In this document: positions 9,636 through 57,691 of the stretch, piece by piece
Numbering within the stretch: position 1 is the first letter of the stretch
Layout: each line of letters begins with the position of its first letter
NCBI RefSeq assembly: GCF_022865125.1
Contig: NZ_CP094833.1
Location: 33,479 to 97,478, forward strand
Reading direction: 5' to 3'
From: Acuticoccus sp. I52.16.1
GTDB lineage: Bacteria; Pseudomonadota; Alphaproteobacteria; Rhizobiales; Amorphaceae
DNA length: 64,000 bases
Notes under the pieces: model-generated
What the model was told of the DNA's origin: nothing
Seen by the model: the letters and a program-made list of their open reading frames with translations, nothing else
The model's database searches: none
Position numbers and translations under genes: made by a program

Positions 9636-10369
9636 CCTCCCGCGACACGACCCCTCGCGACATGAGGAGTGACGACATGACCGCGCCGGGAGAGTTGTCA
9701 GCTGTCAACGCGCCGGTCCGCTTCGACGGAATCCGGGCGGTCGTGTTCGATTTCGACGGCGTCGTCGTCGACAGCGTCGACGTCAAGACCGAGGCCTTCG
9801 TCGCCCTCTACGCGCCCTACGGCGAAAAGGTCATGGACGCGGTGCGCGCCTATCACCTCGCCCACGGCGGCATGCCCCGCGCCGACAAGCTGCGCCACTG
9901 GCAGCGCACGCTGGTGGACGGCCCCGACGACGCGGCGACGATCACCGGCCTCGGCGCCCGCTTCGGCGCCATGGTGAAGGAGAAGGTCATCGCCGCGCCC
10001 CAGATCGCCGGCGCCGAAGCCGCCCTCGCCGCATTGTCGGCCCGCCTGCCGCTCCACGTCGCCTCCGCGACGCCGGAGGTGGAGCTGCACGAGATCGTCG
10101 CCGCGCGCGGGCTGACGGGCTATTTTCGCAGCGTCCACGGCATCCCGACCACCAAGGTCGACGCGTTGCGCATGCGCCTGGCCGAAGGCCTCGCGCCGGA
10201 CGAAGTGCTGATGATCGGCGACGCCACCGCCGACCATGCCGCCGCCGCCGCCGTGGGGACGCGGTTTCTCGGCGTCGTCGCCGCGGGGCCCGGCCCCTTC
10301 CCGGCCGGAACGCCCCGCGTCGCCGATCTGACGGACCTGCCGGCGATCGTTTCGCAGAGCGCGGCGTGA
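9632..10369 (+). CDS. HAD-superfamily phosphatase (beta-phosphoglucomutase/KdsC-like role)
   Basis: 245 residues from ATG 9632, which overlaps the dehydrogenase stop (ATGA). HAD motif I is VFDFDGVVVDS, motif II is VASATPEVEL, the Lys is in TTKVDALR, and motif IV is MIGDATADHAAAA. A helical C1 cap lies between motifs I and II. ATG 9677 is another good start (AGGAG eight bases upstream). The first 30 residues are unusual: three imperfect 15-bp repeats (9638-9682), then a parS-like palindrome inside codons at 9694-9709. A phosphatase fits the CMP-sugar-acid operon, since KdsC does the same job for KDO. Confidence 0.88.
   Translation: MTSRDTTPRDMRSDDMTAPGELSAVNAPVRFDGIRAVVFDFDGVVVDSVDVKTEAFVALYAPYGEKVMDAVRAYHLAHGGMPRADKLRHWQRTLVDGPDDAATITGLGARFGAMVKEKVIAAPQIAGAEAALAALSARLPLHVASATPEVELHEIVAARGLTGYFRSVHGIPTTKVDALRMRLAEGLAPDEVLMIGDATADHAAAAAVGTRFLGVVAAGPGPFPAGTPRVADLTDLPAIVSQSAA
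9638..9682. repeat. Three imperfect 15-bp tandem repeats at the HAD gene start
   Basis: Units at 9638-9652, 9653-9667 and 9668-9682 share the core CGCGACAYGA and encode SRDTT, PRDMR and SDDMT. They lie between the two possible start codons of the HAD gene. Confidence 0.55.
9694..9709. other. parS-like RepB binding site 1 (inside HAD gene 5' end)
   Basis: GTTGTCAGCTGTCAAC fits the repABC centromere pattern GTTNNNNGCNNNNAAC and is palindromic except for one base pair. It is identical to the copy between repA and repB. It lies 3.1 kb upstream of repA, within the codons for ELSAVN of the HAD protein. Confidence 0.75.
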
Positions 10370-10385
10370 ACGGGACCGCCGCATC

Positions 10386-10409
10386 GCTCGGGACTCACCA
10401 AGGAACAGG
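10386..10409. repeat. Dispersed intergenic repeat, copy 1 (left module)
   Basis: A 24-bp segment beginning GCTCGGGACTCACC recurs at 46055-46078 with one mismatch. In both places it is followed by a GGCACCGCCGTGCC hairpin module, here displaced by a 145-bp inverted repeat. Confidence 0.7.
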
Positions 10410-10416
10410 GCGGGCG

Positions 10417-10561
10417 CCTGTTCCTCGGACCCGTCCGTCGCTGAATGAAGCCCTGAGGCGGACGCGGGCGGGGCGCAAGGCACGCTTCGCTCTTCGGCCT
10501 TGCACCCCGCCCACGTCCGCCTCCGACCGGGCTTCAGCGACGGACGGCTCCGAGGAACAGG
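10417..10561. repeat. Long inverted repeat (about 65-bp arms) between HAD and epimerase genes
   Basis: The left arm (from CCTGTTCCTCGGA) and right arm (ending TCCGAGGAACAGG) pair along about 65 bases with a few mismatches and small bulges. The tip is near GCAAGGCACGC...CTTCGGCCTTGC. Its termini match the flanking GAGGAACAGG module, as if the hairpin had inserted there. It could act as a strong RNA structure or a palindromic mobile repeat. Confidence 0.75.
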
Positions 10562-10565
10562 CTGA

Positions 10566-10587
10566 GGCACCGCCGTGCCGCGGTGCC
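10566..10587. repeat. Dispersed intergenic repeat, copy 1 (right hairpin module)
   Basis: GGCACCGC and GCGGTGCC form an 8-bp stem around CGTGCC. The same module with one change occurs at 46084-46105. Confidence 0.7.
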
Positions 10588-10733
10588 CCCAGGGCCGCGC
10601 CCCGCCGTGCGGGGAGAGAGCCTCGCAGGGTGAGCGCGGCGTGGGGGGAGAGAGAGAAGAGAGACGGGCCGGCGGGGGGGCGGGGATGACGAAGGAGATG
10701 ACGGGGGGGCCGACGGGGGGGACGACGGGGGGG

Positions 10734-11660
10734 ATGCGCAAAGCCGTCGTCACCGGCGGGTCGGGCTTTCTCGGCAGCCACGTCGCCGACGCCTTCTCCG
10801 CCGCCGGCTACGCCGTCGGCGTCTACGACGTGCGGCCCTCGCCCCACCTCGGGGCGGGCCAGACCATGACGACCGGCGACCTCGCCGACGTGGACGCCCT
10901 CGCCGCGGCGTTCGAGGGCGCCGACGTCGTCGCCCATTTCGCCGGCATCGCCGACATCGGCGCCGCCAACGTCGACCCGGTGCGGACCGCTCACGTCAAC
11001 CTCGTCGGCACCGTCAACACGCTGGAGGCGGCCGTGCGCGCCGGGGTGAAGCGCTACCTCTTCGCCTCGACCGTCTACGTCTATTCCGACATGGGCGGCT
11101 TCTACCGGGCCTCCAAGCAGGCCTGCGAGGCCTTCGTCGAGACCTTCTCGCAGGAGCGCGGCCTTCCCTTCACCATCCTGCGCTACGGCACCCTCTACGG
11201 CCGCCGTTCCGGCGGCACCAACCGCATCCATTCCATGGTGACGTCCGCCATCCGCGACAAGGCGATCGCCTATCCCGGCTCCGGCGAGGCGCTGCGCGAC
11301 GTCATCCACGCCCGCGACGCCGCCACCCTCACCGTGCGCACCCTCGCCCCCGAATATGCCGACGCCCACCTCCTCATCACCGGCCAGGAGCGCGTGCGGG
11401 TGAAGGACATCGCCCGGATGATCGCCGAAATCGTCCCCGGCCCCATCGCCCTCGACTTCAAGGACGGCGAGCCGGAGGGGCACTACATGCTGACCCCCTA
11501 TTCGTTCGCGCCGCGTCTGTCCAAGAAGCTGGTGCCGACCGAATATATCGACATCGGCCAAGGCCTCTACGACTGCATCCAGGAGGCCTGGGACGCTGCC
11601 CACCCGCAGGAGCCCACCTACCTGCCCGGCTCCGGCAAGAGCCGCGACGGCACGTCCTGA
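10734..11660 (+). CDS. NAD-dependent sugar epimerase/dehydratase (SDR family)
   Basis: 308 residues from ATG 10734. The Rossmann loop VVTGGSGFLGSH is at residues 4-15, the ASTVYVYS strand follows, and the catalytic Tyr and Lys are in FYRASKQ. The C-terminal half (RYGTLYGRRSG) is typical of nucleotide-sugar epimerases. In-frame ATGs at 10686 and 10698 would add a Thr/Gly-rich leader encoded by G-tracts; 10734 is preferred because it begins at the first beta strand. The intervening spacer holds inverted repeats, so it may or may not belong to the preceding sugar-acid operon. Its substrate is unknown. Confidence 0.85.
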   Translation: MRKAVVTGGSGFLGSHVADAFSAAGYAVGVYDVRPSPHLGAGQTMTTGDLADVDALAAAFEGADVVAHFAGIADIGAANVDPVRTAHVNLVGTVNTLEAAVRAGVKRYLFASTVYVYSDMGGFYRASKQACEAFVETFSQERGLPFTILRYGTLYGRRSGGTNRIHSMVTSAIRDKAIAYPGSGEALRDVIHARDAATLTVRTLAPEYADAHLLITGQERVRVKDIARMIAEIVPGPIALDFKDGEPEGHYMLTPYSFAPRLSKKLVPTEYIDIGQGLYDCIQEAWDAAHPQEPTYLPGSGKSRDGTS

Positions 11661-11689
11661 CGACGCGCCGCCAACCCGAGGACACACCC

Positions 11690-12013
11690 ATGATCACCCG
11701 CATCGGCCTCTTCGACGGCACCATCAGGCCCGGCCAGGAGAGCGCCTTCTACGCCTACGTCTGGGAGGAGATGCTCGCCGTGTGGCAGGCCTTCCCGGGC
11801 CTGCGCAGCCTCCAGGTGCTGACCGGCGAATCGCCGGAGCTCGGCACCGCCTACCCCCTCGTCACCGTCTTCCAGTTCGACGACGAGGCCGCCCTCGCCG
11901 CCGCCCTCGCCTCGCCCGAGCGCCAGCGCTCGCTGGAGAAGACCAAGGGCCTTCTGGAGATGTTCGACGGCCGCGTCGTGCACCAGGTCCTCAAGCCGCT
12001 CCCCCGCCCGTGA
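11690..12013 (+). CDS. Ferredoxin-fold (dimeric alpha-beta barrel-like) protein, unknown function
   Basis: 107 residues that look like one alpha+beta barrel half: a beta strand (ITRIGLFDG), a helix (ESAFYAYVWEEMLAVWQAF), a strand ending LRSLQVLTG, then a second strand-helix pair. The pattern recalls EthD or antibiotic-biosynthesis-monooxygenase-like proteins, but no catalytic signature is clear. It lies 29 bp after the epimerase gene, and its stop codon overlaps a GTG of the following exonuclease gene, so it is probably in the same operon. Confidence 0.7.
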   Translation: MITRIGLFDGTIRPGQESAFYAYVWEEMLAVWQAFPGLRSLQVLTGESPELGTAYPLVTVFQFDDEAALAAALASPERQRSLEKTKGLLEMFDGRVVHQVLKPLPRP

Positions 12014-12045
12014 GCCTTCCGCCCGTGAGCCTTCCGCCCGTGAGC
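12010..12045 (+). repeat. 15-bp tandem repeat with iterated GTG start codons
   Basis: The unit GTGAGCCTTCCGCCC is present twice, followed by a partial third copy. Each begins with an in-frame GTG, offering three possible starts for the exonuclease gene. Confidence 0.8.
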
Positions 12046-12750: not shown

Positions 12751-13989
12751 ATGAGTGAGACCGGCGTGACACCCATCGGAACGAACGACCCCGTCGGCTA
12801 CGACACCATCGCCGGCGACGCCGCCACCTTGAGTGCGCAGATCACCCGCCTGCGGGCGCAGATCTTCGAGCCGGAGATGGTCAAGACGCTGCGCCCCTTC
12901 ACCAGCGCGGAGGCGGCCAAGCTGCTCGGCGTCACGGATTCCTACCTGCGCCACCTGGCGCGGGCCGGCGAAGGACCGGAGCCGGCCCGCCAGTCCGGCA
13001 ACCGCCACGCCTACAGCCTCGCCCAGATCGACGAGCTGCGCTCCCTGCTCGCCCGCAAAGGCGGCCCCAAGGCGCGTGTCGTCACCCCCAATCGGCCGCC
13101 GCACGAGAGCGCGCAGGTGATCGCCGTCGCCAACTTCAAGGGCGGCTCGGGCAAGACCACGACGACCGTGCACCTCGCCCAGCACCTCGCCATGCGCGGC
13201 TTCAAGGTGCTCGCCGTCGACCTCGACCCGCAGGCGTCCCTGTCGAGCCTCTTCGGCTACCAGCCGGAGGCGGACGTCTCCTCCGGCGAGACTCTCTACG
13301 GTGCCATCCGCTACGACGACCCGCGGCCCATCACCGAGGTCATCCGTCCCACCTACTTCCCGAACCTCGACCTGGTGCCCGGCAACCTGGAGCTCCACGA
13401 GTTCGAGCACGAGACGCCCCGCGCGCTGATGGAGCGCGGCGCCCGCCAGGCCCCGTTCTACAGCCGCGTCGCGACGGCGCTGGCCGCGGTCTCGATGCGC
13501 TACGACATCGTCGTCATCGACTGCCCGCCCCAGCTCGGCTTCCTGACGCTGGGCGCCCTGTGCGCGGCCACCGGCGTCCTCGTCACGGTGCATCCGCAGA
13601 TGCTGGACATCGCCTCGATGAGCCAGTTCCTCAACATGACGGCCGACCTGATGGACGTGGTGCGCCGCGCCGGCGCCGACGTCGAGCTCGACTTCTTCCG
13701 TTACGTCCTGACCCGCTACGAGCCCAAGGACGGGCCGCAGGCGCAGGTCGCCGGCTTCCTGCGCTCGCTGTTCGGCGAGCGGGTGCTGACCAACGCCATG
13801 GTGAAGTCGACCGCGCTCGCCGACGCCGGCCTGTCCAAGCAGACCCTCTACGAGGTCGGCCGCGAGGGGATGACGCGCTCCACCTACGACCGGGCGCTCG
13901 AGAGCCTCGACGCCGTCAACGGCGAGATCGAGGCGCTGATCCGCGCGGTGTGGGATGCCAGGAGCGTACCGGCGCAGGCGGCCGAGTGA
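12751..13989 (+). CDS. repA: Plasmid partitioning protein RepA (ParA-type ATPase of repABC replicons)
   Basis: 412 residues, typical for RepA (about 400). It has an N-terminal winged-helix segment (SAEAAKLLGVTDSYLRHL), the deviant Walker A FKGGSGKTTTT at about residue 130, Walker A' VLAVDLDPQAS, and Walker B IVVIDCPPQLG. The C-terminal region (DAGLSKQTLYEVGREGMTR) is strongly RepA-like. The protein drives segregation with RepB on parS and normally represses its own promoter. repB follows after 103 bp containing a parS-like site. In classical operons repC comes third; here it is absent. Confidence 0.95.
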   Translation: MSETGVTPIGTNDPVGYDTIAGDAATLSAQITRLRAQIFEPEMVKTLRPFTSAEAAKLLGVTDSYLRHLARAGEGPEPARQSGNRHAYSLAQIDELRSLLARKGGPKARVVTPNRPPHESAQVIAVANFKGGSGKTTTTVHLAQHLAMRGFKVLAVDLDPQASLSSLFGYQPEADVSSGETLYGAIRYDDPRPITEVIRPTYFPNLDLVPGNLELHEFEHETPRALMERGARQAPFYSRVATALAAVSMRYDIVVIDCPPQLGFLTLGALCAATGVLVTVHPQMLDIASMSQFLNMTADLMDVVRRAGADVELDFFRYVLTRYEPKDGPQAQVAGFLRSLFGERVLTNAMVKSTALADAGLSKQTLYEVGREGMTRSTYDRALESLDAVNGEIEALIRAVWDARSVPAQAAE

Positions 13990-14029
13990 GGGCGTCGACG
14001 GCTGACGACCGGGGCCGCCTCGGTGCAGA

Positions 14030-14045
14030 GTTGTCAGCTGTCAAC
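14030..14045. other. parS-like RepB binding site 2 (repA-repB spacer)
   Basis: GTTGTCAGCTGTCAAC, identical to site 1, lies 41 bp after repA and 48 bp before repB. This is a position in which centromere sites are known in repABC plasmids. Confidence 0.88.
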
Positions 14046-14092
14046 TCGGGCCGCCGGGACAGGTGAGGCGGGCGACAAGGGGGAGTGAGGCG

Positions 14093-15178
14093 ATGACCAA
14101 GCGGCGCGCGGCGATGGAGCGGCTTCTCAGCGTGGAGCCGATCGCGGCCAACCCGGGCGGCGGCAATCCCGGTGCGAATTCGGGCGGCGTGAACCCGGGG
14201 GGCGATCCGGGCGCGCCCGCCGGCACGAAGGCCGCGCCCGGCGGCGGCGAGGCGAGATCCCGCCCCGCACCCCCCACCCGCTCGGGCGCGGTGCGCACCA
14301 TGGGTCTCGCGCTCGACCGCATCACCGACCCCGCCGCGACGCGCGAGGCCGTCATCGAGCTCGACACCGCGCTGCTCGACCCGTCCTTCGTGCGCGACCG
14401 GCTCGACGAGGCCGAGCCCGAAGGCGCCGAGGACCCCGCCGATCTCGACCCGACCGGCCTTGCCGCCCTCGCCCAGAGCATCGCCGAAGGCGGGCAGGCG
14501 GTGCCGATCCTGGTGCGCCCGCACCCCGCGATCGACGGCCGTTACCAGATCGCCTACGGCCACCGCCGCTGGCTCGCCTGCAAGGCGCTGGGCCGCCCGG
14601 TGCGCGCGATCGTGCGCAGGCTCGACGACGAGGCGCTGGTGCTCGCCCAGGGCCGCGAGAACAACGCCCGGCGCGACCTCACCTTCATCGAGCGGGCGCA
14701 GTTCGCCGCCGCCCTCGTCGCCCGCGGCATGGCCCGTCCGACCGTCGGCAAGGCGATCGGGGTGGACAAGTCCGAGCTCGCCCGCTTGCTCGCCGTCGCC
14801 AACGGCCTGCCCGAGGGCCTCGCGCCGCTGATCGGCCGCGCGCCCAAGGCGGGGCGGCCGCGCTGGTTGCGTCTCGTCGAGCTGTGCCGCAGCGAGGGAG
14901 ACGACGCCGCCTTCACCGCCGCCGCCGCCGCCGCGCCGCTGCCGACCGACGACCGCTTCAAGACCGTCTTCGACGCGCTCACCATGCGCCGCAATGCCGC
15001 CCGCGCGCTGGAGACGCCGCCCCCGCCGCCGCAGCCCGAGGGCGCGCCGATGACGGTCGCGCGGGGCCCCGGCCGCACCGTCATCACGATCGACAGCCGC
15101 AAGGCGCCGGACTTCGCCGCCTATGTCGAGGAGCGCCTCGCGGCGCTCTACCGGGAGTTCTGCGACGGCAAAAGGTGA
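14093..15178 (+). CDS. repB: Plasmid partitioning protein RepB (ParB family)
   Basis: 361 residues. A low-complexity Asn/Gly/Pro-rich N-terminal linker (about residues 20-60) replaces part of the usual start. The ParB nuclease-like domain follows, with QAVPILVRPH, a YGHRRWLACKALG loop and REN...LTFIERAQFAAALVARG. A helix-turn-helix (TVGKAIGVDKSELARLLAVA) comes next for parS recognition. ATG 14093 has GGGGGAGTGAGG upstream; an in-frame ATG at 14063 lies closer to parS. The downstream neighbour is a convergent glycosyltransferase gene, so there is no repC and no room for the repB-repC antisense RNA. Confidence 0.93.
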   Translation: MTKRRAAMERLLSVEPIAANPGGGNPGANSGGVNPGGDPGAPAGTKAAPGGGEARSRPAPPTRSGAVRTMGLALDRITDPAATREAVIELDTALLDPSFVRDRLDEAEPEGAEDPADLDPTGLAALAQSIAEGGQAVPILVRPHPAIDGRYQIAYGHRRWLACKALGRPVRAIVRRLDDEALVLAQGRENNARRDLTFIERAQFAAALVARGMARPTVGKAIGVDKSELARLLAVANGLPEGLAPLIGRAPKAGRPRWLRLVELCRSEGDDAAFTAAAAAAPLPTDDRFKTVFDALTMRRNAARALETPPPPPQPEGAPMTVARGPGRTVITIDSRKAPDFAAYVEERLAALYREFCDGKR

Positions 15179-15226: not shown

Positions 15227-16258
15227 TCATGCGCCGCCCGCGCGGCGATGCAGCGCCTGCTGGATCGCGTTGCCGAGGTGGGCGGACGGATCGCTCCCGA
15301 CCCAGCGCTGTCCGTCGTCCTTCAGCACCGAGATCAGACGTGGCCGGTCCTCCAGCCACATCCGGTGCCCGATCTCGGCCCGCGCCCGCGCGCCCTGCGA
15401 CAGGCGCTCGGCGGTCTGCGCGGTGAGGGCCGGAAGGTCCGTCGGCCGCTTCGGGTCGAACAGGATGCCGCTCGCCAGGTGCCCGATCGTCTCGTTCGCC
15501 GGCGCCACGTCAGGCGCCACCACGATCTGTCCCCGCCCCATGGCGCGGCGGGTCGCGTGGTCGATCCCCGGCGCCAGCCCAAAGGCGGGCGAGGCGAACA
15601 CGAAGTGCGCCTCGGCTTCGATCTCGGCCGGGCTCTCGCCCTCGCCCTCGTTGCCGCCCTCGGAGGCCGCGGTCCGGGGGGGCGCCGGCAGCGCCGCCGG
15701 ATCGGCGATCGCCAGGTTCGGGATCGTCAGGTCCGGAATCGCCAGGTGGCGGCACTGCTGGGCGACGATCCCCCGCGTCGGCATCCCGGCCCGGGGCCCG
15801 TGCGTCGCGCCTCGGCCCGGTTCGGCGTCGACGAAGACCGCGCGCCAGGCCTCGGGAGCGAAGTCGCGGGCCGGCACGGCGCCGGCCGGCTGCGGCCAGT
15901 GGTCGAAGTAGGCCGAGCGGCACTCGTGCGCCTGCAGCGCCTCGTGCTGCCGCCGGGAGAACGACACGAACCGCGCCGCTCCGGCGAACTGCTGCCAGTA
16001 GGTCCCCGCGCGCGGCGCCATCGAGGGTACGATCACCGCCCGCCGCAGGCCGATGGCCAGCAACCCCGCGGCGACCGCCTCGGTGCGCCAGAAGAGGGCG
16101 AGGTCGGCCGGCTCCGCCAGCCCCAGCCGCAGCGCCTCGGCGAGCGGCGCGGCCGGGTCCACGGCGACCCGCGTCACCTCGCCCATCTCTTCCAGAACCT
16201 CGGCGAGCACGTTGCGGTCGCCCGTGCCGGCGAGCGGCTCCACGCTCAGGATCTTCAT
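15227..16258 (-). CDS. Putative glycosyltransferase (GT4-like), polysaccharide locus
   Basis: 343 residues from ATG 16258, which overlaps the stop of the preceding GT2 gene by four bases. No textbook signature is complete. The C-terminal half (FASPAFGLAPGIDHA... NETIGHLASGILFDP) resembles the acceptor-side Glu and loop of GT-B enzymes, and DFAPEAWRAVFVDAEP could be the nucleotide-binding strand. Residues near the middle (LAIPD, LTIPN, LAIAD) come from a 15-bp tandem repeat, followed by an acidic linker. It probably acts with the GT2 partner in glycan assembly. The assignment is by context as much as sequence. Confidence 0.6.
   Translation of the reverse strand: MKILSVEPLAGTGDRNVLAEVLEEMGEVTRVAVDPAAPLAEALRLGLAEPADLALFWRTEAVAAGLLAIGLRRAVIVPSMAPRAGTYWQQFAGAARFVSFSRRQHEALQAHECRSAYFDHWPQPAGAVPARDFAPEAWRAVFVDAEPGRGATHGPRAGMPTRGIVAQQCRHLAIPDLTIPNLAIADPAALPAPPRTAASEGGNEGEGESPAEIEAEAHFVFASPAFGLAPGIDHATRRAMGRGQIVVAPDVAPANETIGHLASGILFDPKRPTDLPALTAQTAERLSQGARARAEIGHRMWLEDRPRLISVLKDDGQRWVGSDPSAHLGNAIQQALHRRAGGA
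15708..15752. repeat. 15-bp tandem repeat inside the GT4-like gene
   Basis: Three units (15708-15722, 15723-15737, 15738-15752) of the type ATCGYCAGGTYCGGR encode LAIPD, LTIPN and LAIAD on the minus strand. Confidence 0.75.
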
Positions 16259-17958
16259 GCCGCGCTCTCCGTCGTGGTGGCGGCCGCGAGGCCCGCCCGA
16301 GCCTCCTCCCCGGCCCCGGCCGGCGCCACCACCACCAGCCGTTCCAGCCCCAGCCCCAGCATGCGCGGGTCGCCCGGCGGCTGCGCCAGCGCCGACACCG
16401 CCAGCACCAGCTCGTTGACGTCGCCGCTCCGCCACACGTCGGCGACCGGCACGCGCACCTCGCCCCGCCGCACCAGCGGCGCGCTGGCGACGACGGCGCC
16501 GTTGAGCTCGATCGTCAGCGTCTGCGTCTCGTCCAGGAACGGGTTTTCGCGCACCATCAGCACGAGCGCCTCCGCCGGCCCTTCGGCCCGGAAGACGATG
16601 TCCGCCCGCTCCGAGAGCGACCACACGTGCGTCTCCTCCAGGCCCGCCCAGCCGTGCGCCAGGAGCTTGGCGCTGGCCGCGCTGCGGCTGGAGAAGTGCG
16701 TCTCGCCCGGCCCCAGCAGCGGCGGCTCGCGCTTGGCGAGCGTCTCGAAGCGGAAGCGCCGCAGGGCGAGCGAGACGTAGCGCTCCGCCGGCACCGTCTC
16801 CGCCGGGCTCCCCGCCTCGGCGCTCGCTCCCGCGGCCGCCCCCCCGCCTTCACCGGGCGGCACCGCGACGGACCGCACCTCGCCGTGGCGCGGCAGGCAG
16901 TCGACCACGGTCCCCGGGGCCAGCGGCTGCGCCAGCGTCAACGTCAGCGCGAACGGCCCCCGCGGCACCCCCTGCATCGCGACCACCTTGCCCGCGACGC
17001 GCAGCTCCAGGCTCTGGTCGGCGAGGTCGTTGTGCCCCTCCAGGACGAGGGTGTGCGCGCGCCCGCCGCTCGGCGTCGCCAGGCGAAAGCCCTCGCCGGC
17101 GCACCAGGCGAGCGGGGGCTCGGCGGCCGGTGCGCCGTTGGCGTGCGGCGGGCGAGGCGGCCGAGGCGGGCGCGCCAGCACACCGTCCACGATCGCCCCG
17201 TTCATCGGGCTGGTGGACGGGAAAGGCGGCGCCCCGCCGCCCGGATAGAAGTGGTCGTCGATCGCGTCCGGGTCCTGCGAGTGGCGCCGGTAGAGGGCGC
17301 AGAACTCCATCCGGCAGCGCGCATGGCGGCGGATCGACATGCCGCCGCCGGCGTAGAGCGAGACGATCTCGTCGATATATTGCATGCGCGCGCCGCGGTC
17401 GTAGGCGGTCAGCAGGAAGGCGTGGTCGGCGCAGATCTCGTAGGCGGTGTCGTAGCCGTGCGCCTCGAGCAGCGAGGCGCGCGTGAAGGTCGCCTGATGG
17501 CCGGGGATCTTCGCCAGCCACGCCTCGCAGACGTCCCCGCGCCGCAGCGTCTCGCGCAGCGCCGCATAGTCGGCCGAGCGCGCCAGCGTGTGCCGCCCGC
17601 CGTCGACGTAGAGGTGGTCGCCGTAGAGGATGTCCGGATCGCCGACGCGCCGCGCCCAGATCGTCGACAGCGTGCTGCGGGCGTGGAACCGGTCGCCCGC
17701 ATTCATGAAGAGCACATACTCGTTGGAGGCCATCTGCGCGGCCTCGTTCATGGCGTAGAAGATGCCCGCGTCGAAGGTGGTGGCGACCTTGTCGATCTCT
17801 CCGGCGTAGCGGGCGAGGACCTCGGGAGTGCGGTCCCAGCTGGTACCGTCGACGACGATCGTCTCGACGTCCGCGAAGTCCTGCTGCAGGACGCTCTCGA
17901 GAGTCGCCGGCAGCAGGTCCGCCGCGTTCAGCGCGACGGTGATGATGGTGAAACTCAT
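16255..17958 (-). CDS. Family 2 glycosyltransferase with C-terminal beta-sandwich extension
   Basis: 567 residues. The N-terminal 230 residues form a GT-A domain: FTIITVALNAADLLPATLESV, VVDGTSWDRTPEVL, FDAGIFYAMNEAA and LFMNAGDRF. This is the WcaA/colanic-acid-like pattern with NAGD in the metal-binding loop. The remaining 330 residues are Ala/Pro-rich with beta-sheet-like segments (ELRVAGKVVAMQGV, LTIELNGAVVASAPL), perhaps a carbohydrate-binding module. Transcription runs leftward into the GT4-like gene with an ATGA overlap. Palindromic elements precede it at 18010-18042. Confidence 0.88.
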   Translation of the reverse strand: MSFTIITVALNAADLLPATLESVLQQDFADVETIVVDGTSWDRTPEVLARYAGEIDKVATTFDAGIFYAMNEAAQMASNEYVLFMNAGDRFHARSTLSTIWARRVGDPDILYGDHLYVDGGRHTLARSADYAALRETLRRGDVCEAWLAKIPGHQATFTRASLLEAHGYDTAYEICADHAFLLTAYDRGARMQYIDEIVSLYAGGGMSIRRHARCRMEFCALYRRHSQDPDAIDDHFYPGGGAPPFPSTSPMNGAIVDGVLARPPRPPRPPHANGAPAAEPPLAWCAGEGFRLATPSGGRAHTLVLEGHNDLADQSLELRVAGKVVAMQGVPRGPFALTLTLAQPLAPGTVVDCLPRHGEVRSVAVPPGEGGGAAAGASAEAGSPAETVPAERYVSLALRRFRFETLAKREPPLLGPGETHFSSRSAASAKLLAHGWAGLEETHVWSLSERADIVFRAEGPAEALVLMVRENPFLDETQTLTIELNGAVVASAPLVRRGEVRVPVADVWRSGDVNELVLAVSALAQPPGDPRMLGLGLERLVVVAPAGAGEEARAGLAAATTTESAA

Positions 17959-20224: not shown

Positions 20225-20240
20225 GTTGTCAGCTGACAAC
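20225..20240. other. parS-like RepB binding site 3
   Basis: GTTGTCAGCTGACAAC is a perfect 16-bp palindrome fitting GTTNNNNGCNNNNAAC, located between the convergent fcl and bphP genes. Confidence 0.85.
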
Positions 20241-20248: not shown

Positions 20249-22855
20249 TCAGCCGCGGCGCCCGGCCACCTTCGACAGCGCCTCGATCACGTCCTCGGCC
20301 GAGTAGGGCTTCTTGACCGAGAGCGTGCCCGGCCGCGCCTCGGCCGGCAGGTCCAGCGTCTCGCCGTAGCCCGTCACGAACACGTACGGCACGCCCTTGG
20401 CGTTGAGCGGGTCGATCAGCGCGAAGCTCGTCTCGCCGCCCAGGTTCACGTCCAGCATCGCGACGTCGATCGTCTCCTCGGCGACGATGCGCATCGCGTC
20501 GGCGAGGCTCATCGCGGTGAAGACGTTGCCCAGCCCCCTCTCCAGGAGCAGCTGCTCGGCGTCGAGCGCCATGATCATGTTGTCCTCCACCAGGAGGGCG
20601 GTCATCCCGGCGAGGCCCTCCGGCGCGGGCGTCGCCGGCAGCGGCGCGGGCGCCGGCGCGGCGTTCGAGGTGCCCATCGAGATCACCTTCCCCGGCAGCA
20701 CGAAGCGCGCCTCCAGCCCCTTCAGCCGCCAGTTGAGGCTGGCCTCGCCGCCCAGCTCGTGCGGGATCGAGCGTTCGATGATGGTCGAGCCGAAGCCGCG
20801 CCGCGTCGGCGCCTGGACCGGCGGCCCGCCGCTCTCGCGCCAGTCGATGACGCAGCAGGAGCGCTCGTCGATCGCCCAGTCGACATGGACGACGCCGGTG
20901 GAATCGGACAGCGCACCGTACTTGGCCGAGTTCGTGACCATCTCGTGCATCACCAAGGCGAGCGTGGAGAAGGCCTCGGCGTTGACGAGGACCGGCGGTC
21001 CCGACAGCTCCACCCGCCCGGCCTTCTCGCCGACATAGGCCTCCGCCTCGGTGCGCACGAGGCCCTCCAGGCTCTGCGCCGCGAACGAGGCGTCGGTGAT
21101 CTGGTCGTGCGCGCGCGCCAGCGCCTGGATGCGTCCGCCGATGATCTGCGCGAAGTCGTTCACCGAGGTGGCGCTGCCGCGGCTCTGCAGCACCACGGCG
21201 CGGATCACCGCCAGGATGTTGCGCACCCGGTGATTGAGCTCGGCGATCAGGAGCTCCTGGCGCTGCGAGGCGACCTCCCTGAGCCGCTCGTTCTCCTCGT
21301 TGAAGCGCAAGAGCACTTCCATGATCGCCACGCGCAGCGCCTCGGCCGACTTCTGCTCCGACACGCTCCACGCCGCGGACTTGCCGCGCACCGTCTCCTG
21401 CCACGCCTCGAAGCTCTTGCGCGGCGAGAGGCGCGGCCCGTTGGGCCCGAACGTGGTCTCCTTGTGCGACGGGTCGCCCGCCCAGGTGACGGTGCGGGCG
21501 ATCTCGCGGCGGAAGAAGATCAGGTAGTCCCGCGGCGTGCGCGAGATCGGCACCGCGATCAGCCCGGCCGCCCGGTCGACGAACTCCGCCGCCTTGGGAT
21601 AGACCGCCGACAGCTCGTCCGTGACGTAGACCCGGCTCGCCGCCGCGCGGTTGAGGAAGCGCGCCAGGCCCGGCATGTCGTCGGGGAAGGGGCAGGTGCC
21701 GACGGTGCGCACCCGCCCCTCCGACCACACCGCGAACCCGTCCGAGGGGATCATCTCGCGAAAGTCGGAGGCGAAGTTGATGAGCTGGTCGGGCGAGGGC
21801 GAGGTCGAGACCAGCCGCCCCACCACGCGGTCGTGCAGGTCCCGCGCCGCCTCCTCGGTCTGGCGCATCTCCTTGGCGAGGCGCCCCTCGATGACGAGGG
21901 CGACGATCTGCCCGAAGAGCTCCAGCACCGAGCGCAGCTCCATCGAGAGCCGCCGCGGCGCGTAGTGGTGCAGCGCGAAGAGGCCCCACAATTCGCCGCC
22001 GATCACGATCGAGATCGAGAACGAGGCGCCGACGCCCATGTTGGTGAGATACTCGATGTGGATCGGCGACACCGCCCGCGTCACCGACAGCGAGAGGTCC
22101 AGCACCGTCCCGTCCGGGTCGATCCCCGGCACGACCGGCACCGTCTCGCCGCCGACGTCGGCGATGATGCGGGTGCGGTTCTTGACGTAGAGCCGGCGCG
22201 CCTGGGTGGGGATGTCGCTCGCCGGATAGTTGAGGCCGAGGAAGGGCTCGATGCCGCGCCGCGCCGCCTCGGCGACGACCGCGCCCGAGCCGTCGGGGGC
22301 GAAGCGGTAGAGCATTACCCGGTCGAACCCGGTGACGGCGCGCAGCTGGCGCACCGCCTCGGTGGTGAGCGCCTCCAGCGAGATGCAGCGCTCGATGCGC
22401 CCGATCATCGTCTTGACCAGCGTGCCGGAGCTCGCCGCCGACATCGTGCACGGCTCGGCCTCCACCACGATGGAGTGGCGCACGATGTGGATCGCGAGGT
22501 CGAAGCGGCGGCCGTCGTTGAAGAGGTCGATGCCGAAGATGCGCTCCGAACCCTCGCCGGGGCTGAGGCCCTGCAGGCGGTCGCGGATGTCGTGCACGCT
22601 GGAGGGGGGCAGCAGCTCGGTGAGCGGCAGGCCGAGGCAGTCGTCCGCCGAGCGCCCGGCGATCTCGCCGATGTTGGCCGAGACGTGCTGGACCAGCCAG
22701 TCCATGGAGACGGCGAAGAGGTAGCCGAACGGCTGGATCCGCCCCAGCAGGTGGATCGGCTCCCGGTCGCAGTTCGACAGATCGACGGAGAAGGCCTCTG
22801 CGTCGTTCTTCGGGGCGTCGTTCTTCGGGGCGCCGTCCGGAGCGTCGCTCGTCAT
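20249..22855 (-). CDS. bphP: Bacteriophytochrome: PAS-GAF-PHY photosensor, HWE histidine kinase and response-regulator domain
   Basis: 868 residues. The biliverdin-binding cysteine sits near the N-terminus (DLSNCDREPIHLLGRIQPFGY, about residue 28). PASDIP in the GAF domain (LNYPASDIPTQARRLYV) and the PHY region follow (FAVWSEGRVRTVG; FFRREIARTVTWAG). The kinase has the HWE/HisKA_2 H-box LIAELNHRVRNILAVIR and N-box LVMHEMVTNSAKYGALS. A receiver domain is fused at the C-terminus (LLVEDNMIM, Asp in DVAMLDVN, Lys in VKKPYS). The ATG overlaps the heme oxygenase stop (ATGA), so light sensor and chromophore synthesis are coupled. Output targets are not evident. Confidence 0.95.
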   Translation of the reverse strand: MTSDAPDGAPKNDAPKNDAEAFSVDLSNCDREPIHLLGRIQPFGYLFAVSMDWLVQHVSANIGEIAGRSADDCLGLPLTELLPPSSVHDIRDRLQGLSPGEGSERIFGIDLFNDGRRFDLAIHIVRHSIVVEAEPCTMSAASSGTLVKTMIGRIERCISLEALTTEAVRQLRAVTGFDRVMLYRFAPDGSGAVVAEAARRGIEPFLGLNYPASDIPTQARRLYVKNRTRIIADVGGETVPVVPGIDPDGTVLDLSLSVTRAVSPIHIEYLTNMGVGASFSISIVIGGELWGLFALHHYAPRRLSMELRSVLELFGQIVALVIEGRLAKEMRQTEEAARDLHDRVVGRLVSTSPSPDQLINFASDFREMIPSDGFAVWSEGRVRTVGTCPFPDDMPGLARFLNRAAASRVYVTDELSAVYPKAAEFVDRAAGLIAVPISRTPRDYLIFFRREIARTVTWAGDPSHKETTFGPNGPRLSPRKSFEAWQETVRGKSAAWSVSEQKSAEALRVAIMEVLLRFNEENERLREVASQRQELLIAELNHRVRNILAVIRAVVLQSRGSATSVNDFAQIIGGRIQALARAHDQITDASFAAQSLEGLVRTEAEAYVGEKAGRVELSGPPVLVNAEAFSTLALVMHEMVTNSAKYGALSDSTGVVHVDWAIDERSCCVIDWRESGGPPVQAPTRRGFGSTIIERSIPHELGGEASLNWRLKGLEARFVLPGKVISMGTSNAAPAPAPLPATPAPEGLAGMTALLVEDNMIMALDAEQLLLERGLGNVFTAMSLADAMRIVAEETIDVAMLDVNLGGETSFALIDPLNAKGVPYVFVTGYGETLDLPAEARPGTLSVKKPYSAEDVIEALSKVAGRRG
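22806..22835. repeat. 15-bp tandem repeat at the bphP N-terminus
   Basis: Two near-identical units (22806-22820, 22821-22835) encode APKND twice, just before the chromophore-binding PAS domain. Confidence 0.8.
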
Positions 22856-30132: not shown

Positions 30133-30551
30133 TGCGCCGGCGCCGTCTGGGCGCCCCGCGGCGCCACAAGGAGGAGCGCGAGAGCACCATCCCGCTCATC
30201 AACGTGGTCTTCCTGCTGCTGGTCTTCTTCCTGGTAGCGGGCACCCTGTCGGCCCCGCGCGACGCGACCGTCGATCTCGCGACCGCCGAGGCCTTCGACC
30301 CGGCCGCGCTCGACCCGCAGGCGATCTATGTCGACGCGTCGGGCGCCATCCGGGTCGCCGGCACGGTGATGGACGCGCCGGCCGCGCTGGCGAAGATCGA
30401 GGGCGACGGGTTGGCGCAGGGGCAGGCGATCGTCGTGGTGCCGGACCGCACGCTGGAGGCGAGCCTCCTGCTCGCCCGGCTGGCCGAGCTGCGCCAGGCG
30501 AGCGCGCGGCCGATCCGCATTCTGACCCGCCGGCCGGGAGGGGGCGCATGA
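30129..30551 (+). CDS. ExbD/TolR family protein 2 with Asn in place of the membrane Asp
   Basis: 140 residues with the same layout as the preceding ExbD, but its membrane helix reads IPLINVVFLLLVFFLVAG. The conserved Asp is replaced by Asn, so it probably cannot carry protons. Its periplasmic domain is otherwise complete (AIYVDASGAIRVAGTV; IRILTRRPGG). Overlaps on both sides (ATGA) place it firmly in the operon. It may form a heterodimer with ExbD 1 in the stator pore. Confidence 0.88.
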   Translation: MMRRRRLGAPRRHKEERESTIPLINVVFLLLVFFLVAGTLSAPRDATVDLATAEAFDPAALDPQAIYVDASGAIRVAGTVMDAPAALAKIEGDGLAQGQAIVVVPDRTLEASLLLARLAELRQASARPIRILTRRPGGGA

Positions 30552-31996
30552 GGCTGACCTCGCGCATATGGCTGGTGGCGTTCGTCCTGTCGCTGACGGC
30601 GCACGTCGCCGTGGCGGCCTTCCTGTCGGTCGAGGAGACGGCGCCGCCGCCTTCCGAATCGACCCCGGTGCCGATCGTGCTGGCGCCGACGACGATCGAG
30701 AACATGGAAGACGAGGAGCGCACCGAGGCCGCCGAGGAGGCCGAGGAGGCCGGTGCCGTCGAGGCGCAGTCGCAGGACGCCATGGAGGTCGAGGAGGCCG
30801 AGGCGCCCGACGCGCAGGCCCCCCCGCCGGAGGAGGCAGCGCCGGTCGAGGAGGCCGCCGAGGAGGCGCCGCCCGCCCAGGCCGCCCCGGCCGAGATCGC
30901 TGCCCCGGCCGAGATCGCCGAGACCGCCGCCCCGGCCGAGCCCGAGGCGCTGCCGGAGGCCCCCACCCAGGAGGTCGCCCGGGAAACCGTTCAGGAGACG
31001 GTCGAGGAGACGGTTCAGGAGACCGTCCAGGAGACGGTGGACGCGGCGCCGGCCGAGCCCGTCGAGGCGGCCGCGGTGGAGGCCGAGACCCCGCCCCCGG
31101 CCGAGATCCCGCCCCCCGCCCAGGCCGCGCCGGTGGAGATGGCCGCCGTGGTGCCCGAGACGCCGCGAGAGGCCCCCGAGGAAGACATGCCGGAGGAGGC
31201 CGCCGAGACCCCGCCGGAGACACCCGAGATGGTGGAGGAGGTCGCCGAGGCCCTTCCGCCCGAGGTGCCGCCCGAGGTGGCGCCCGAGCTGGCGATGGCC
31301 GTCCCCGAGGTGGGCGCGCCGATCGCCGCGACGGCCGAGCCGGAGGCGGTGAGCGAGCCGGAGACCCTCCCGGAGGTGGCCGCGGTGCCGCAGGAGACCG
31401 GGCCGGCCGACCCGACGATCCCGTTCCCGACGCGGCGCCCGCCGCCGGACGCCCGGACGCCGACCTTCTCGGCGGAGCAGGCCGACGCGCTGGAGGCGAT
31501 GCCGACGCCGATGCGACATCCGCTTGCCAGCAAGGCGCGGGCAGTGGCGCTGAAGCGCTCGCAGGATCAGCTGGTGGCCGAACAGGCCCGCCAGGCCGAA
31601 GAGGCGCGCCAGGCGGCGGCCGCGGCGACCGCCCGGCGGCGACAGACGGCGCGCACGCAGCAGGCCTCGCCCACCCCGACGCGCACGCAGAGCCGGCCGG
31701 CACGGTCGGGCGGGCGGCGCAGCGGGCAGGCCGAGGCGGCCTACGCCCAGGCGGTCCGCTCGCGCATCGCCGGCGCCTTCCGTCAGGCGGCGGGCCGCAG
31801 CGGCACGGGCTCGGCGACGGTGGCGCTGACGATCGGCCGCAACGGCCGGGTCAGCGGGGCGCGCCTGGTCCGCCGGTCGGGCAATGCGGCGGTGGACCGT
31901 GCGGCCCTCTCGGCGGTGCGGCTGCGCTTCCCGGCCTTCCCGAGCGACATCGCGCGGGCCAGCCTGTCCTTCACCGTCCCCCTGTCGGTCCGCTGA
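30548..31996 (+). CDS. tonB: TonB energy transducer with a long Pro/Glu/Ala-rich periplasmic region
   Basis: 482 residues, about twice E. coli TonB (239). An N-terminal membrane anchor (IWLVAFVLSLTAHVAVAAFL) is followed by about 300 residues rich in Pro/Glu/Ala, including short repeats (EETVQETVQETV). A basic Gln/Arg region (about 330-390) comes next, then a TonB C-terminal domain: AYAQAVRSRIAGAFRQ, VALTIGRNGRVSGARLVRRSG, VPLSVR. It transmits ExbBD energy to outer-membrane receptors. No TonB-dependent receptor is in the window. Its stop is followed by a convergent methyltransferase gene. Confidence 0.9.
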   Translation: MRLTSRIWLVAFVLSLTAHVAVAAFLSVEETAPPPSESTPVPIVLAPTTIENMEDEERTEAAEEAEEAGAVEAQSQDAMEVEEAEAPDAQAPPPEEAAPVEEAAEEAPPAQAAPAEIAAPAEIAETAAPAEPEALPEAPTQEVARETVQETVEETVQETVQETVDAAPAEPVEAAAVEAETPPPAEIPPPAQAAPVEMAAVVPETPREAPEEDMPEEAAETPPETPEMVEEVAEALPPEVPPEVAPELAMAVPEVGAPIAATAEPEAVSEPETLPEVAAVPQETGPADPTIPFPTRRPPPDARTPTFSAEQADALEAMPTPMRHPLASKARAVALKRSQDQLVAEQARQAEEARQAAAAATARRRQTARTQQASPTPTRTQSRPARSGGRRSGQAEAAYAQAVRSRIAGAFRQAAGRSGTGSATVALTIGRNGRVSGARLVRRSGNAAVDRAALSAVRLRFPAFPSDIARASLSFTVPLSVR

Positions 31997-55312: not shown

Positions 55313-55347
55313 CGGCCTGCGGGCCTGCGGGCCTGCGGGCCTGTCGG
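55313..55347. repeat. 8-9-bp GCCTGCGGG tandem repeat
   Basis: Three to four copies in the leader upstream of propeller gene 2. Confidence 0.75.
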
Positions 55348-55425
55348 TCGGGCCTCGGCCCCGGATCGCGCCCGCTTTTTTCGGCGCATCCGCTCGATTT
55401 CGACGTTTTTATCTGGAGGCACCCC

Positions 55426-56784
55426 ATGCCGCTCTTTTCCCGGTTTCGCGACCACTCCGTTTTCGCCCACTCCGCTTTCGACCGGCCCGCGTTCGATTCC
55501 CCCGACCCCGCCCCCGCACGCTTCGCCGTCGCGCAGGGCGACGCCAGCCCCGTCCTGCACCAGGGCCTCCTGTGGAAGGCCTTCGTGCCCGATGCGCCCA
55601 AGCTCATCGTCTCGCGCATGCAGGACCACGTGGTCGAAACCTCCGACGGGCACTTGCACACGCTCGTCAATCTGCACCGCGGCCGCGGCCTGACGCTGCT
55701 GTCGAGCGACGACGACGGCAGGACCTGGGACGTCACGGCGCGCATCCCCAACACCCGCGGCTCCTCCTCCGACATTCGCCTCGTGGAGGGAGAGGACCGC
55801 CTGCTGGTGGTCACCACCACCAAGGCCGGCAAGGTCCTCTACGGCACCTACGACTACGACCTCGCCGACGGCGGCTGGACGCGCGACATCGCCTCCGAGG
55901 TGACGCACGCAGGCATCGACAACACGACGACCAACCCGACCGTCGCGATGGACGCGGAGGGCACCATCGCCGTCGCCTACAACGTCGAGGGGGACGACGG
56001 GCTCGGCCTGGTGTTCGCCTGGTCCGAGGACGGCGGCGCCACCTGGGAGAAGGCCGAGACCGATTTTCCCGGCGTGGCGGCCGGTTCCTTCCGCGTCCTG
56101 TCCACGCCGGACGGGTTCGCCGTCCTCGCCGCCACCGCCGAGGCGATGACCTTCCTCACCTACGATCCGGGCACCGACACCTGGTCCGGCGAGACGGTGA
56201 ACGAGACCGGCGCGGTCGGCCGCTACGCCAGCCACTTCAGCACCACCACGATCGGCGACGACATCTACGCCGCGAGCGTCGACGCGAGCGAGACGCTCAG
56301 CGTCATGCGCTACGAGGGCGCGACCGGGGCGTGGAGCGAGCCGGAGACGCCCGCGCCGATCACCGGCAAGACGACGAACGTGCAGCTGAGCGCCGGGTCC
56401 GACGGCAGCCTCCACCTCGTCTACGACGACCACGACCATCCGGGGCGGCTCGTGGTGCTGGAGAGCGAGGACGGCGGCGAGACCTGGAGCGAGGAGGCGG
56501 TGCTGCAGGTGCCGCGCTGGCTGCGCCTGGAGCCGACGCTGCTGCAGTTCGACGACCTGCCGCTGGTCCGCTTCGAGGCGCCGGAACAGTTCGACGACGA
56601 GCTGCTCGTCGAGGTGCAGGTGAACATCCCCGGCCGCGACGGCTGGACGAGCCTCTACACCTTCGTGCTCGACACCGAGGCCGACGCCGTGCACCTCGCC
56701 GCCCATGATCTTCCTGCCCACAACCTCTCTGCCCACAACCTCTCTGCCCACAACCTCTCTGCCGACGACCTCGCCGCGCTCTGA
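55426..56784 (+). CDS. Asp-box (BNR/sialidase-like) beta-propeller protein 2
   Basis: 452 residues from ATG 55426 (TGGAGGC upstream). It is a paralogue of propeller 1: KLIVSRMQDHVVETSDGHLH, SSDIRLVEGED, DNTTTNPTVAM, RYASHFSTTTIGDDI and QFDDELLVE align along the whole length. Asp-boxes SDDDGRTW, SEDGGATW and SEDGGETW are clearer here. There is no signal peptide. Both ends differ from the paralogue: an N-terminal 15-bp-encoded repeat (HSVFA, HSAFD, RPAFD) and a C-terminal AHNLS repeat. The fold is certain; the ligand is unknown. Confidence 0.82.
   Translation: MPLFSRFRDHSVFAHSAFDRPAFDSPDPAPARFAVAQGDASPVLHQGLLWKAFVPDAPKLIVSRMQDHVVETSDGHLHTLVNLHRGRGLTLLSSDDDGRTWDVTARIPNTRGSSSDIRLVEGEDRLLVVTTTKAGKVLYGTYDYDLADGGWTRDIASEVTHAGIDNTTTNPTVAMDAEGTIAVAYNVEGDDGLGLVFAWSEDGGATWEKAETDFPGVAAGSFRVLSTPDGFAVLAATAEAMTFLTYDPGTDTWSGETVNETGAVGRYASHFSTTTIGDDIYAASVDASETLSVMRYEGATGAWSEPETPAPITGKTTNVQLSAGSDGSLHLVYDDHDHPGRLVVLESEDGGETWSEEAVLQVPRWLRLEPTLLQFDDLPLVRFEAPEQFDDELLVEVQVNIPGRDGWTSLYTFVLDTEADAVHLAAHDLPAHNLSAHNLSAHNLSADDLAAL
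55450..55494. repeat. 15-bp tandem repeat at the N-terminus of propeller 2
   Basis: Units 55450-55464, 55465-55479 and 55480-55494 encode five-residue blocks ending in Phe-Ala or Phe-Asp. Confidence 0.7.
56701..56775. repeat. 15-bp tandem repeat at the C-terminus of propeller 2
   Basis: Three identical GCCCACAACCTCTCT units (56716-56760) flanked by degenerate copies on both sides encode AHNLS repeats that make up the protein's last 26 residues. Confidence 0.9.
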
Positions 56785-56925
56785 CGCCGGCACCGGTGAG
56801 GCGGGCGGGACGCGGCGAGCGGGACGAGGCGGGCGCCGAGGCTCGACAGGGGAACGGGGTGAAGTTGTCCCCGCCCCCCCGCCGCGGCTGTAGAACAGGG
56901 CCGGCTCACTTGAGGGGACCGACCC

Positions 56926-56958
56926 ATGATCGACATGCTGCTGCAGGAGGCGCGCTGA
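56926..56958 (+). CDS. Ten-codon leader ORF overlapping the spike-base gene
   Basis: ATG 56926, preceded by GAGGGG, encodes MIDMLLQEAR. Its TGA overlaps the ATG of the next gene (TGATG), an arrangement that would couple translation. It may be a leader peptide or the remnant of a lost upstream tail gene. Confidence 0.4.
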   Translation: MIDMLLQEAR

Positions 56959-57224
56959 TGGCCGACAATCCGTTCCAGACGTACTCGCAGAGCGTCACCG
57001 CGCCCGCGGTCGACGCTTTTCCCATCACTCCGGACGACGACACCGACCTGACCCAGACCGTGCGGGCCATCTATGTCGGCAACGCCGGCGACGTGAGCCT
57101 CGTCACGGCGGGCGGCTCGACGGTGACCTTCGCCGGCCTCACCGGCAGCATGGTCCTGCCGGTGACGACGAGCCGCGTGCGGGCCAGCGGCACCACGGCG
57201 ACGGGCATCGTCGGCCTCGTCTGA
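56958..57224 (+). CDS. Orphan phage/gene-transfer-agent spike base protein (RCAP_rcc01079-like)
   Basis: 88 residues. The pattern (FPITPDDDTDLTQTVRAIYVGNAGDVSLVT, then TVTFAGLTGSMVLPVTTSRVRASGTTATGIVGLV) is what I recognise from the small spike base proteins associated with Rhodobacter GTA head spikes and related prophages. The GCTTTTCC before ITPDD and the Thr-rich end are typical. No other phage or GTA gene is visible within the window, so it stands alone, possibly as a relic or a reused adhesin piece. Confidence 0.7.
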   Translation: MADNPFQTYSQSVTAPAVDAFPITPDDDTDLTQTVRAIYVGNAGDVSLVTAGGSTVTFAGLTGSMVLPVTTSRVRASGTTATGIVGLV

Positions 57225-57225
57225 G

Positions 57226-57290
57226 GCTCCGCCCGCCCGGGGGCGCCGTCTGCGAAAGGCGCGCCCGGGCGGCCCGGCCCCGGGCGGAGC
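57226..57290 (+). terminator. Strong GC-rich hairpin after the spike-base gene
   Basis: GCTCCGCCC (57226-57234) pairs with GGGCGGAGC (57282-57290), and inner GC-rich segments can extend the stem. It begins two bases after the stop codon. Confidence 0.65.
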
Positions 57291-57421
57291 TCCCATGGCC
57301 TGCAAGGGCCCGTGCATGACCCGTGGATGACGGGCCGGAGCGCCTCAATCTTTTCGAGGCGACCGGTTATTCTCCTGCGCCTCACCTCGCGTTGCCGCGA
57401 TGTTGGAGTGCGTTGGCGATC

Positions 57422-57667
57422 ATGCAGCTCGATCTCTTCCCGACCAATGTGAGGCTGCGTTGCATCGACCCGATGCGCAACAAGCGGCGGTTCTACACGC
57501 TGTCGGTCCAGCCGACGCTGTTCGGGGAATGGGCGCTGGTGCGCGAGTGGGGGCGGCTGGGCTCGGCCGGCCGCGTGCGCACCGACCGCTACGCGACCGC
57601 CGGCCAGGCGATCGACGCGCTGGGCAGCCTCACCCGCGCCAAGCAACGCCGCGGCTATTGCGACTGA
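57422..57667 (+). CDS. WGR domain protein
   Basis: 81 residues. The WGR core is plain: RRFYTLSVQPTLFGEWALVREWGRLGSAGRVRTDRYAT, followed by a helix (AGQAIDALGSL). In eukaryotic PARPs and MolR-type proteins this domain binds nucleic acid. Single-domain bacterial versions are common in alphaproteobacteria on plasmids and chromosomes, with unknown role. ATG 57422 begins at the domain; 57323 would add a non-coding-looking leader. A parS-like site lies 9 bp beyond the stop. Confidence 0.85.
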   Translation: MQLDLFPTNVRLRCIDPMRNKRRFYTLSVQPTLFGEWALVREWGRLGSAGRVRTDRYATAGQAIDALGSLTRAKQRRGYCD

Positions 57668-57675
57668 CGCACGCG

Positions 57676-57691
57676 GTTGTCAGCTGACAAC
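57676..57691. other. parS-like RepB binding site 4
   Basis: GTTGTCAGCTGACAAC, a perfect palindrome identical to site 3, lies 43 kb from repB, between the WGR and cyclase genes. Confidence 0.85.

Follow-up and report, generated by a model that had tools for sequence, protein, structure and literature searches.

A RepABC-type partition module and an RPA-family initiator on a chromid-like replicon of Acuticoccus sp. I52.16.1

How is a replicon maintained that carries the partition genes repA and repB of a repABC plasmid, four scattered centromere-like sites, and no repC? The locus lies in a 64,000-nucleotide stretch of Acuticoccus sp. I52.16.1 (the window), which is the final 64 kb (33,479 to 97,478) of contig NZ_CP094833.1, here called C6; a C6 coordinate is the window coordinate plus 33,478. 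The genome (G000) comprises 5,526,513 bp in six contigs, with 5,134,086 bp in C1 and 97,478 bp in C6. Genes were called with a codon-usage caller of our own making, not a standard program. The observation was confirmed as real and is explained as a hybrid of two known plasmid families. In our reading, to which we give a probability of about 0.8, C6 is a chromid-like plasmid initiated by an RPA-family protein and segregated by a RepABC-type repAB/parS module that has been used with two RPA lineages.

Partition genes, parS-like sites and repC

The partition features of the window are:

12751..13989, + strand: repA, RepABC-type ParA partition ATPase, 412 aa (TIGR03453, 601 bits, cut-off 348)
14093..15178, + strand: repB, RepABC-type ParB-like protein, 361 aa from ATG (TIGR03454, 285 bits, cut-off 201.5, scored on a 371-aa form)
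9694..9709, + strand: parS1, GTTGTCAGCTGTCAAC, exact motif; in frame near the start of a HAD-like hydrolase open reading frame (ORF) if that start lies at or before 9677
14030..14045, + strand: parS2, GTTGTCAGCTGTCAAC, exact motif in the repA-repB spacer
20225..20240, no strand: parS3, palindrome GTTGTCAGCTGACAAC, exact motif between two convergent genes
57676..57691, no strand: parS4, palindrome GTTGTCAGCTGACAAC, exact motif 8 bp past the stop of ORF 57422-57667

The initial annotation had called RepA and RepB complete and typical, and both scored over their RepABC-type family cut-offs in agreement with this. RepB carries the domains PF07506 and PF02195, and its nearest solved chain is 6t1f, a ParB (E 8.7e-13); its near solved relatives include ParB, Spo0J, KorB and nucleoid-occlusion proteins. 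The ATG at 14093 was preferred as the repB start over the GTG at 14063 because RepB of three relatives starts with MTKRR. RepB proteins of related Acuticoccus species are 61-83% identical to that of C6.

The exact motif GTTGTCAGCTGWCAAC occurs in the window at the four listed places (C6 43,172; 47,508; 53,703; 91,154). Allowing up to three mismatches gave nine matches, namely the four sites on both strands and one 3-mismatch match at 13994, and 100 shuffles gave a mean of 0.31 matches with none reaching nine. A scan of all 5,526,513 bp of the genome found the exact motif at these four C6 places only (reversed-pattern control, 0); for all four to fall on 1.8% of the genome has a probability of about 1e-7 under even placement. 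No further C6 sites were found with four motif variants at up to 2 mismatches, and among 150 near-palindromic 16-mers of C6 the parS-like motif is the only family of four, one other family having three. These counts uphold the earlier proposal that four 16-bp sites fit the repABC centromere pattern. A 16-mer equally common on all replicons, which the initial annotation had named as the finding that would undo this proposal, was rejected by the genome-wide scan. The site parS1 would lie inside coding sequence if its ORF, HAD-like by matches under cut-offs, starts at ATG 9677 or earlier; the gene caller chose 9743.

A looser pattern, GTTGWCNGCNGWCAAC, was found at 16 places in four of ten genomes (G000-G009), 15 of them on the repAB contigs G000:C6, G002:C1, G005:C12 and G007:C6 and one on G005:C23. 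The form GTTGACCGCGGTCAAC is seen at G005:C23:8139-8154, on a 12-kb contig, and at L063:7496 and 8929 in a repABC locus (G092:C2), where one copy precedes repA and the other lies between repA and repB.

Searches with PF03428 (RepC) gave no match on C6 at E up to 1. The one over-cut-off match in the genome is on C5, and the five weaker matches (E up to 1) all lie off C6 as well. The earlier statement that the window holds no RepC-like frame is thereby extended to the whole contig, and a repC elsewhere on the same molecule, the other finding that had been named as fatal, was not found. C6 has the RepA and RepB families and the palindromic parS in or near repAB that characterize RepABC replicons, and lacks repC in the operon. 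A repAB without repC is not new in itself, because the Figure 3 legend of PMC9040568 gives cases in which parS and/or repC are absent.

The C5 locus (L061:12323-17573) has its repC divergent from its own repAB rather than in one operon, as does G005:C2, and its RepB scored 200.3 bits, just under the cut-off of 201.5. The palindromes between repC and repAB on C5 are CGTGACAGCTGTCACG (one exact, two with one mismatch), another kind than the C6 sites.

The RPA initiator and its pairing with RepAB

A candidate initiator was found just outside the window:

C6:29,887-30,945: RPA-family gene (PF10134 domain match at 30,151-30,873, 245.6 bits, cut-off 27)
C6:30,946-31,604: iteron region, putative replication origin

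Eight 22-bp iterons in two sets of four stand upstream of the RPA gene. Iterons beside the initiator gene are typical of RPA-type plasmids. PF10134 matched over its cut-off at five places in the genome (C3, C2 twice, C4 and C6), and its search disclosed no second RPA gene on C6. The RPA name rests on this family; NCBIfam gave no family for the protein at 1e-5. Orthologs 95-96% identical are present in the related Acuticoccus contig G005:C12 and in A. yangtzensis C8 with the same iterons, equally spaced in the former and nearly so in the latter. Simple Nei-Gojobori counts across three species gave dN/dS of 0.15-0.17 for repA, 0.26-0.32 for repB and 0.05-0.11 for the RPA gene, ratios that show purifying selection on all three. 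C6 thus has an RPA initiator and adjacent iterons, and lacks the divergent ParAB of the RPA plasmids' own type. With an RPA gene, iterons and a RepABC-type repAB on one contig, C6 appears to be an RPA replicon whose partition module is of RepABC type.

Among eight RPA neighbourhoods in three Acuticoccus genomes, full-length ParA and ParB of the kinds searched were found in one only (L198), short ParA-like matches in three (L196, L201, L202) and none in the other four. L198 (G000:C2:1-18000) has an RPA gene with roseobacter-type ParAB, its ParA 78% and its ParB 43-48% identical to that type, and a second RPA gene lies near the other end of C2.

The pairing recurs within the genus. We searched 150 related genomes for RepB (E up to 1e-20) and RPA (E up to 1e-15) and matched co-occurrence by hand; this gave 37 RepB places in 22 genomes, 62 RPA places in 31 genomes, and four contigs with both, G000:C6, G005:C12, G007:C6 and G005:C2. 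On the last, a 1.43-Mb contig, about 360 kb separate RPA from a repAB that is accompanied by a divergent repC of its own. G007:C6 is identical letter for letter to plasmid NZ_CP133485.1 of Acuticoccus sp. MNP-M23, a record of 24,077 bp given as linear, whose annotation of 20 features names replication initiator protein A, repA and repB but lacks repC. Here RPA and repA lie side by side in divergent orientation, separated by six iterons whose sequence is different. The Acuticoccus genomes G001, G003, G004 and G006 have RPA and no RepB-like match at 1e-20. Two findings support the suggestion that RepA and RepB segregate a replicon with a different initiator: the RPA gene and iterons on the same contig, and the recurrence of the pairing on two other Acuticoccus contigs.

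Outside Acuticoccus, none of the best 80 of 160 RepB loci, scanned on genome contigs with up to 10 kb of flank on each side, had an RPA match at 1e-6, and 70 of them had a RepC match (1e-8). The ten without RepC are L115 (A. yangtzensis itself), L129, L130, L134, L139, L141, L162, L166, L180 and L181, the last of which ends just past repB; downstream ORFs were inspected in seven of the ten. Leaving out L115 and L180, one of the eight source genomes has RPA (G156), on an 8.4-kb contig other than the complete contig of L141. Four of these loci without a RepC match come from Rhizobium (L129, L130, L134, L139); in them repAB is followed by similar ORFs of 379-395 aa, and PF10134 was not found in their source genomes. 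A plasmid collection held 2150 records with a RepB-like match and 949 with an RPA-like match, of which the best 40 and the best 60, respectively, were viewed as two separate sets. No pairing of an RPA initiator with a RepABC-type RepAB is described in the titles and abstract openings surveyed in the open-licence literature.

Ancestry was evaluated with two trees. In the RepA tree (104 rows) the four Acuticoccus RepAs form one clade (100/100) inside a 57-row RepABC-type clade, the remaining rows of which come from RepB loci. Three roseobacter ParAs linked to RPA fall outside that clade and scored 195-204 bits with TIGR03453, below the cut-off of 348. The RPA tree (16 rows, two long branches) groups the partners from C6, G005:C12 and A. 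yangtzensis with Paracoccus sediminicola (100/100), and the MNP-M23 partner with G005:C26 (97/99). Among the best 60 of the 949 RPA-like plasmid records, P. sediminicola p3 is closest to the C6 RPA (63.7%). One RepA clade with RPA partners from two lineages argues that the partition module changed initiators at least once; the cassette may have moved between RPA plasmids, or an initiator may have been replaced. The initial annotation had also offered a captured incompatibility module. The capture part of this idea fits the single clade that the RepAs form among RepABC-type RepAs; the reading in which one RPA replicon acquired the module once was dropped, given the two partner lineages.

Under our preferred reading, replication would start at the iteron origin, C6:30,946-31,604, bound by the adjacent RPA-family initiator, and a ParABS system of RepABC type would segregate the molecule, with RepB binding the 16-bp sites, probably as a clamp to judge from its protein family, and the RepA Walker ATPase moving the complexes. 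The repAB/parS module would have been taken up from RepABC plasmids by Acuticoccus and worked with at least two RPA lineages, while some sites moved with neighbouring genes during rearrangement and others were gained or lost. The DNA binding, the ATPase and clamp activities, the origin function, the part of each site in segregation, the directions of the moves and the route of the initiator change are all predicted from sequence.

Site layout across species and competing explanations

The contig G005:C12 (109,544 bp) has matches to 68 of the 74 genes called on C6 (at least 50% identity for 66 of them), arranged in shuffled order. It carries sites at 30,947, 52,390, 55,503, 59,200 and 71,845, the last one base off GTTGTCAGCTGWCAAC. 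Three of the four C6 sites have a counterpart beside the same gene: that of parS1 lies between the same two genes, differs by one base and is in frame in the HAD-like ORF; that of parS2 is the reverse complement in the repA-repB spacer; and that of parS4 is identical and follows the homologue of ORF 57422-57667, 1.7 kb from repA, compared with about 43 kb from repB on C6. The distance of parS4 on C6 therefore reflects changed gene order. A gene block appears to have carried this site, and the scatter, although real, seems to be partly a product of rearrangement.

Other relatives display other layouts. All three Acuticoccus relatives compared carry one or more exact-type sites between repA and repB. 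In A. yangtzensis (G002, assigned by a 21-kb locus of A. yangtzensis JL1095 found exactly in G002:C1), C1 has one exact site in the spacer and C8 none, and about 2 kb upstream of repA is an array of 11 parS-like 16-mers with 1 or 2 mismatches each, spaced at 27-28 bp except for a single 55-bp gap (G002:C1:112638-112940). MNP-M23 has four sites in the spacer, two of them exact, and one more inside an annotated gene at 13,993.

Several observations weigh against our reading. About 15-16 kb separate the RPA gene from repAB on C6, so that location alone ties them, and that the molecule closes into a circle is something we infer. In A. yangtzensis, repAB (C1) and the C6-type RPA (C8) are on separate draft contigs. 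The four RPA partners were joined in 0% of 200 bootstrap trees and so are not one clade, the node that nests the Acuticoccus RepAs has 89/96 with a weak sister, and in P. sediminicola p3 the genes next to RPA encode a small AAA ATPase and a ribbon-helix-helix protein. As for the sites, parS3 is without a counterpart in G005:C12, where its two flanking genes lie apart, and the G005:C12 sites at 30,947 and 71,845 have none on C6.

The first and the last of these points each invite another explanation. C6 could be a composite, in which a repAB plasmid (a RepABC plasmid minus repC, or an MNP-M23-like RPA-repAB plasmid minus its own RPA) merged with, or took in, a second RPA replicon. The spacing between RPA and repAB would fit this, as would the C6 RPA being of another lineage than the RPA beside repAB in MNP-M23, and passages of PMC5613091 describe composite plasmids and reshuffled partition modules within RepABC. 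No trace of a RepC (E up to 1) or of a second RPA was found on C6, however, although absent remnants do not exclude loss; we consider a composite a real possibility, somewhat short of an even chance. As for the distant sites at 20225 and 57676, they may be relics of rearrangement that no longer matter, the work being done by the spacer site and perhaps by that at 9694. The strong shuffling between C6 and G005:C12, the position of the 57676 counterpart near repA and the want of one for parS3 favour such relics, and parS sites are almost always in or near the operon among published repABC replicons (PMC9040568). Against this, all four sites still match the motif exactly, although the spacers of the shared sites align at only 21-43% identity with the sites included, a rough figure since the sites are not opposed in two of the alignments; moreover, at distances of about 15 and 23 kb from its repAB, G005:C12 carries two more sites, of which one is exact and the other a variant. 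On balance relics appear unlikely.

The scattered sites could also be operators, with RepB controlling nearby genes or condensing C6 in addition to segregation or in its place. Three of the four stand on the 5' side of a gene (parS1, the HAD-like ORF; parS2, repB; parS4, ORF 57839-58609), and sections of PMC9040568 discuss transcription control of repABC through parS. Yet parS3 lies between convergent genes, and C6 and G005:C12 have different genes downstream of parS4; we consider this role quite improbable. Returning to the hybrid reading, we tentatively propose, with rather more doubt than belief, that the Acuticoccus repAB/parS module is a partition cassette for initiators of another family, one RepAB lineage having served two RPA lineages on an rRNA-bearing chromid-like replicon and on a 24-kb plasmid. 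Its centromere layout would then change fast from species to species (an 11-site array in A. yangtzensis as opposed to single sites over 41-48 kb in two others), with position nearly free to evolve if the sites stay on the molecule.

Chromid-like traits and known systems

Chromids are recognized by plasmid-type replication and partition, core genes on the replicon and a composition near that of the chromosome. C6 has plasmid-type replication and partition genes (RPA and RepAB), a complete rRNA operon (L005:11217-16684, with 16S, tRNA-Ile, tRNA-Ala, 23S and 5S) that includes one of the two 16S genes of the genome, and a GC content of 71.4%, compared with 69.4% for 22 kb sampled in seven stretches from the 5.1 Mb of C1. 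Its other features are:

3683..5824, - strand: malate synthase G (NF002825, 1103.6 bits, cut-off 565; single match in the genome at 1e-20)
63233..63853, - strand: serine recombinase (invertase model NF009949, 51.9 bits, under the cut-off of 272), adjoining the contig-end repeats

The malate synthase copy is the only match in the genome, which bears on the chromid-like status. We would call C6 a low-copy, chromid-like plasmid of an Acuticoccus species. Genes from its two ends are divergent neighbours in G005:C12, suggesting a circle. Palindromic repeats occur at both ends (L005:1-254, with a 60-bp tandem unit at the start, and window 63860-64000) near the serine recombinase gene; the recombinase could be a resolvase, and the repeats and gene together possibly a resolution site.

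Where G005:C12 ends, about 354 bp can be aligned at 83% with the region preceding the C6 16S gene, and the adjoining gene is the same in both contigs; an rRNA operon therefore probably stood there too. G002:C1 has 5S and part of 23S facing outward at both ends, which suggests that this 134-kb contig is bounded by two rRNA operons in inverted orientation. rRNA operons on plasmids are already known (PMC10645730). Among the neighbouring genes, one convergent to repB, which the initial annotation took for a glycosyltransferase, lies at 15227-16258, the next (16255-17958) matches glycosyltransferase models under their cut-offs, and the product of window 20249-22855 resembles a bacteriophytochrome histidine kinase and includes a response-regulator domain (322.6 bits, under the model cut-off of 1040).

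The findings point to an exchange of partition and initiation modules between unrelated plasmid families, beyond the published reshuffling within RepABC; the replicon concerned bears an rRNA operon and a central-metabolism gene that has no second match in the genome. A repAB without repC in a window thus need not mean a broken replicon. Acuticoccus species with arrayed and with scattered sites and related RepBs offer a natural test of how much centromere position weighs.

Three kinds of known plasmid are closest to C6. It resembles RepABC replicons, for example pAMI4 with its distant 3parS locus (PMC9040568), in the RepA and RepB families, the parS palindrome in the spacer (as in Rhizobiales), and extra sites away from the operon and inside genes; that paper reports parS sites kilobases to tens of kilobases from repABC, some inside genes. 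In contrast to those replicons, C6 is without repC and has an RPA initiator and iterons instead. With the RPA plasmids Antarctobacter pSMS3-2, Pacificitalea pDY25-D and Alloyangia plas4 it shares the family of the initiator and nearby polysaccharide genes. Their initiator and parAB are divergent, as in MNP-M23, own-type ParAB being so placed in three of four RPA plasmid records viewed, but their ParAs differ from C6 RepA in lying below the TIGR03453 cut-off and outside the RepABC-type clade. A third kind is represented by Martelella pMM259, whose A2B2C1 module, according to PMC5613091, which reports partition pairs reshuffled between RepABC groups, joins a partition pair of one group to a replicase of another, with palindromes that follow the partition genes; its replicase is still a RepC, unlike that of C6. 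The parts of C6 are thus known and their combination unusual, the initiator of one plasmid family standing with the partition genes and scattered sites of another.

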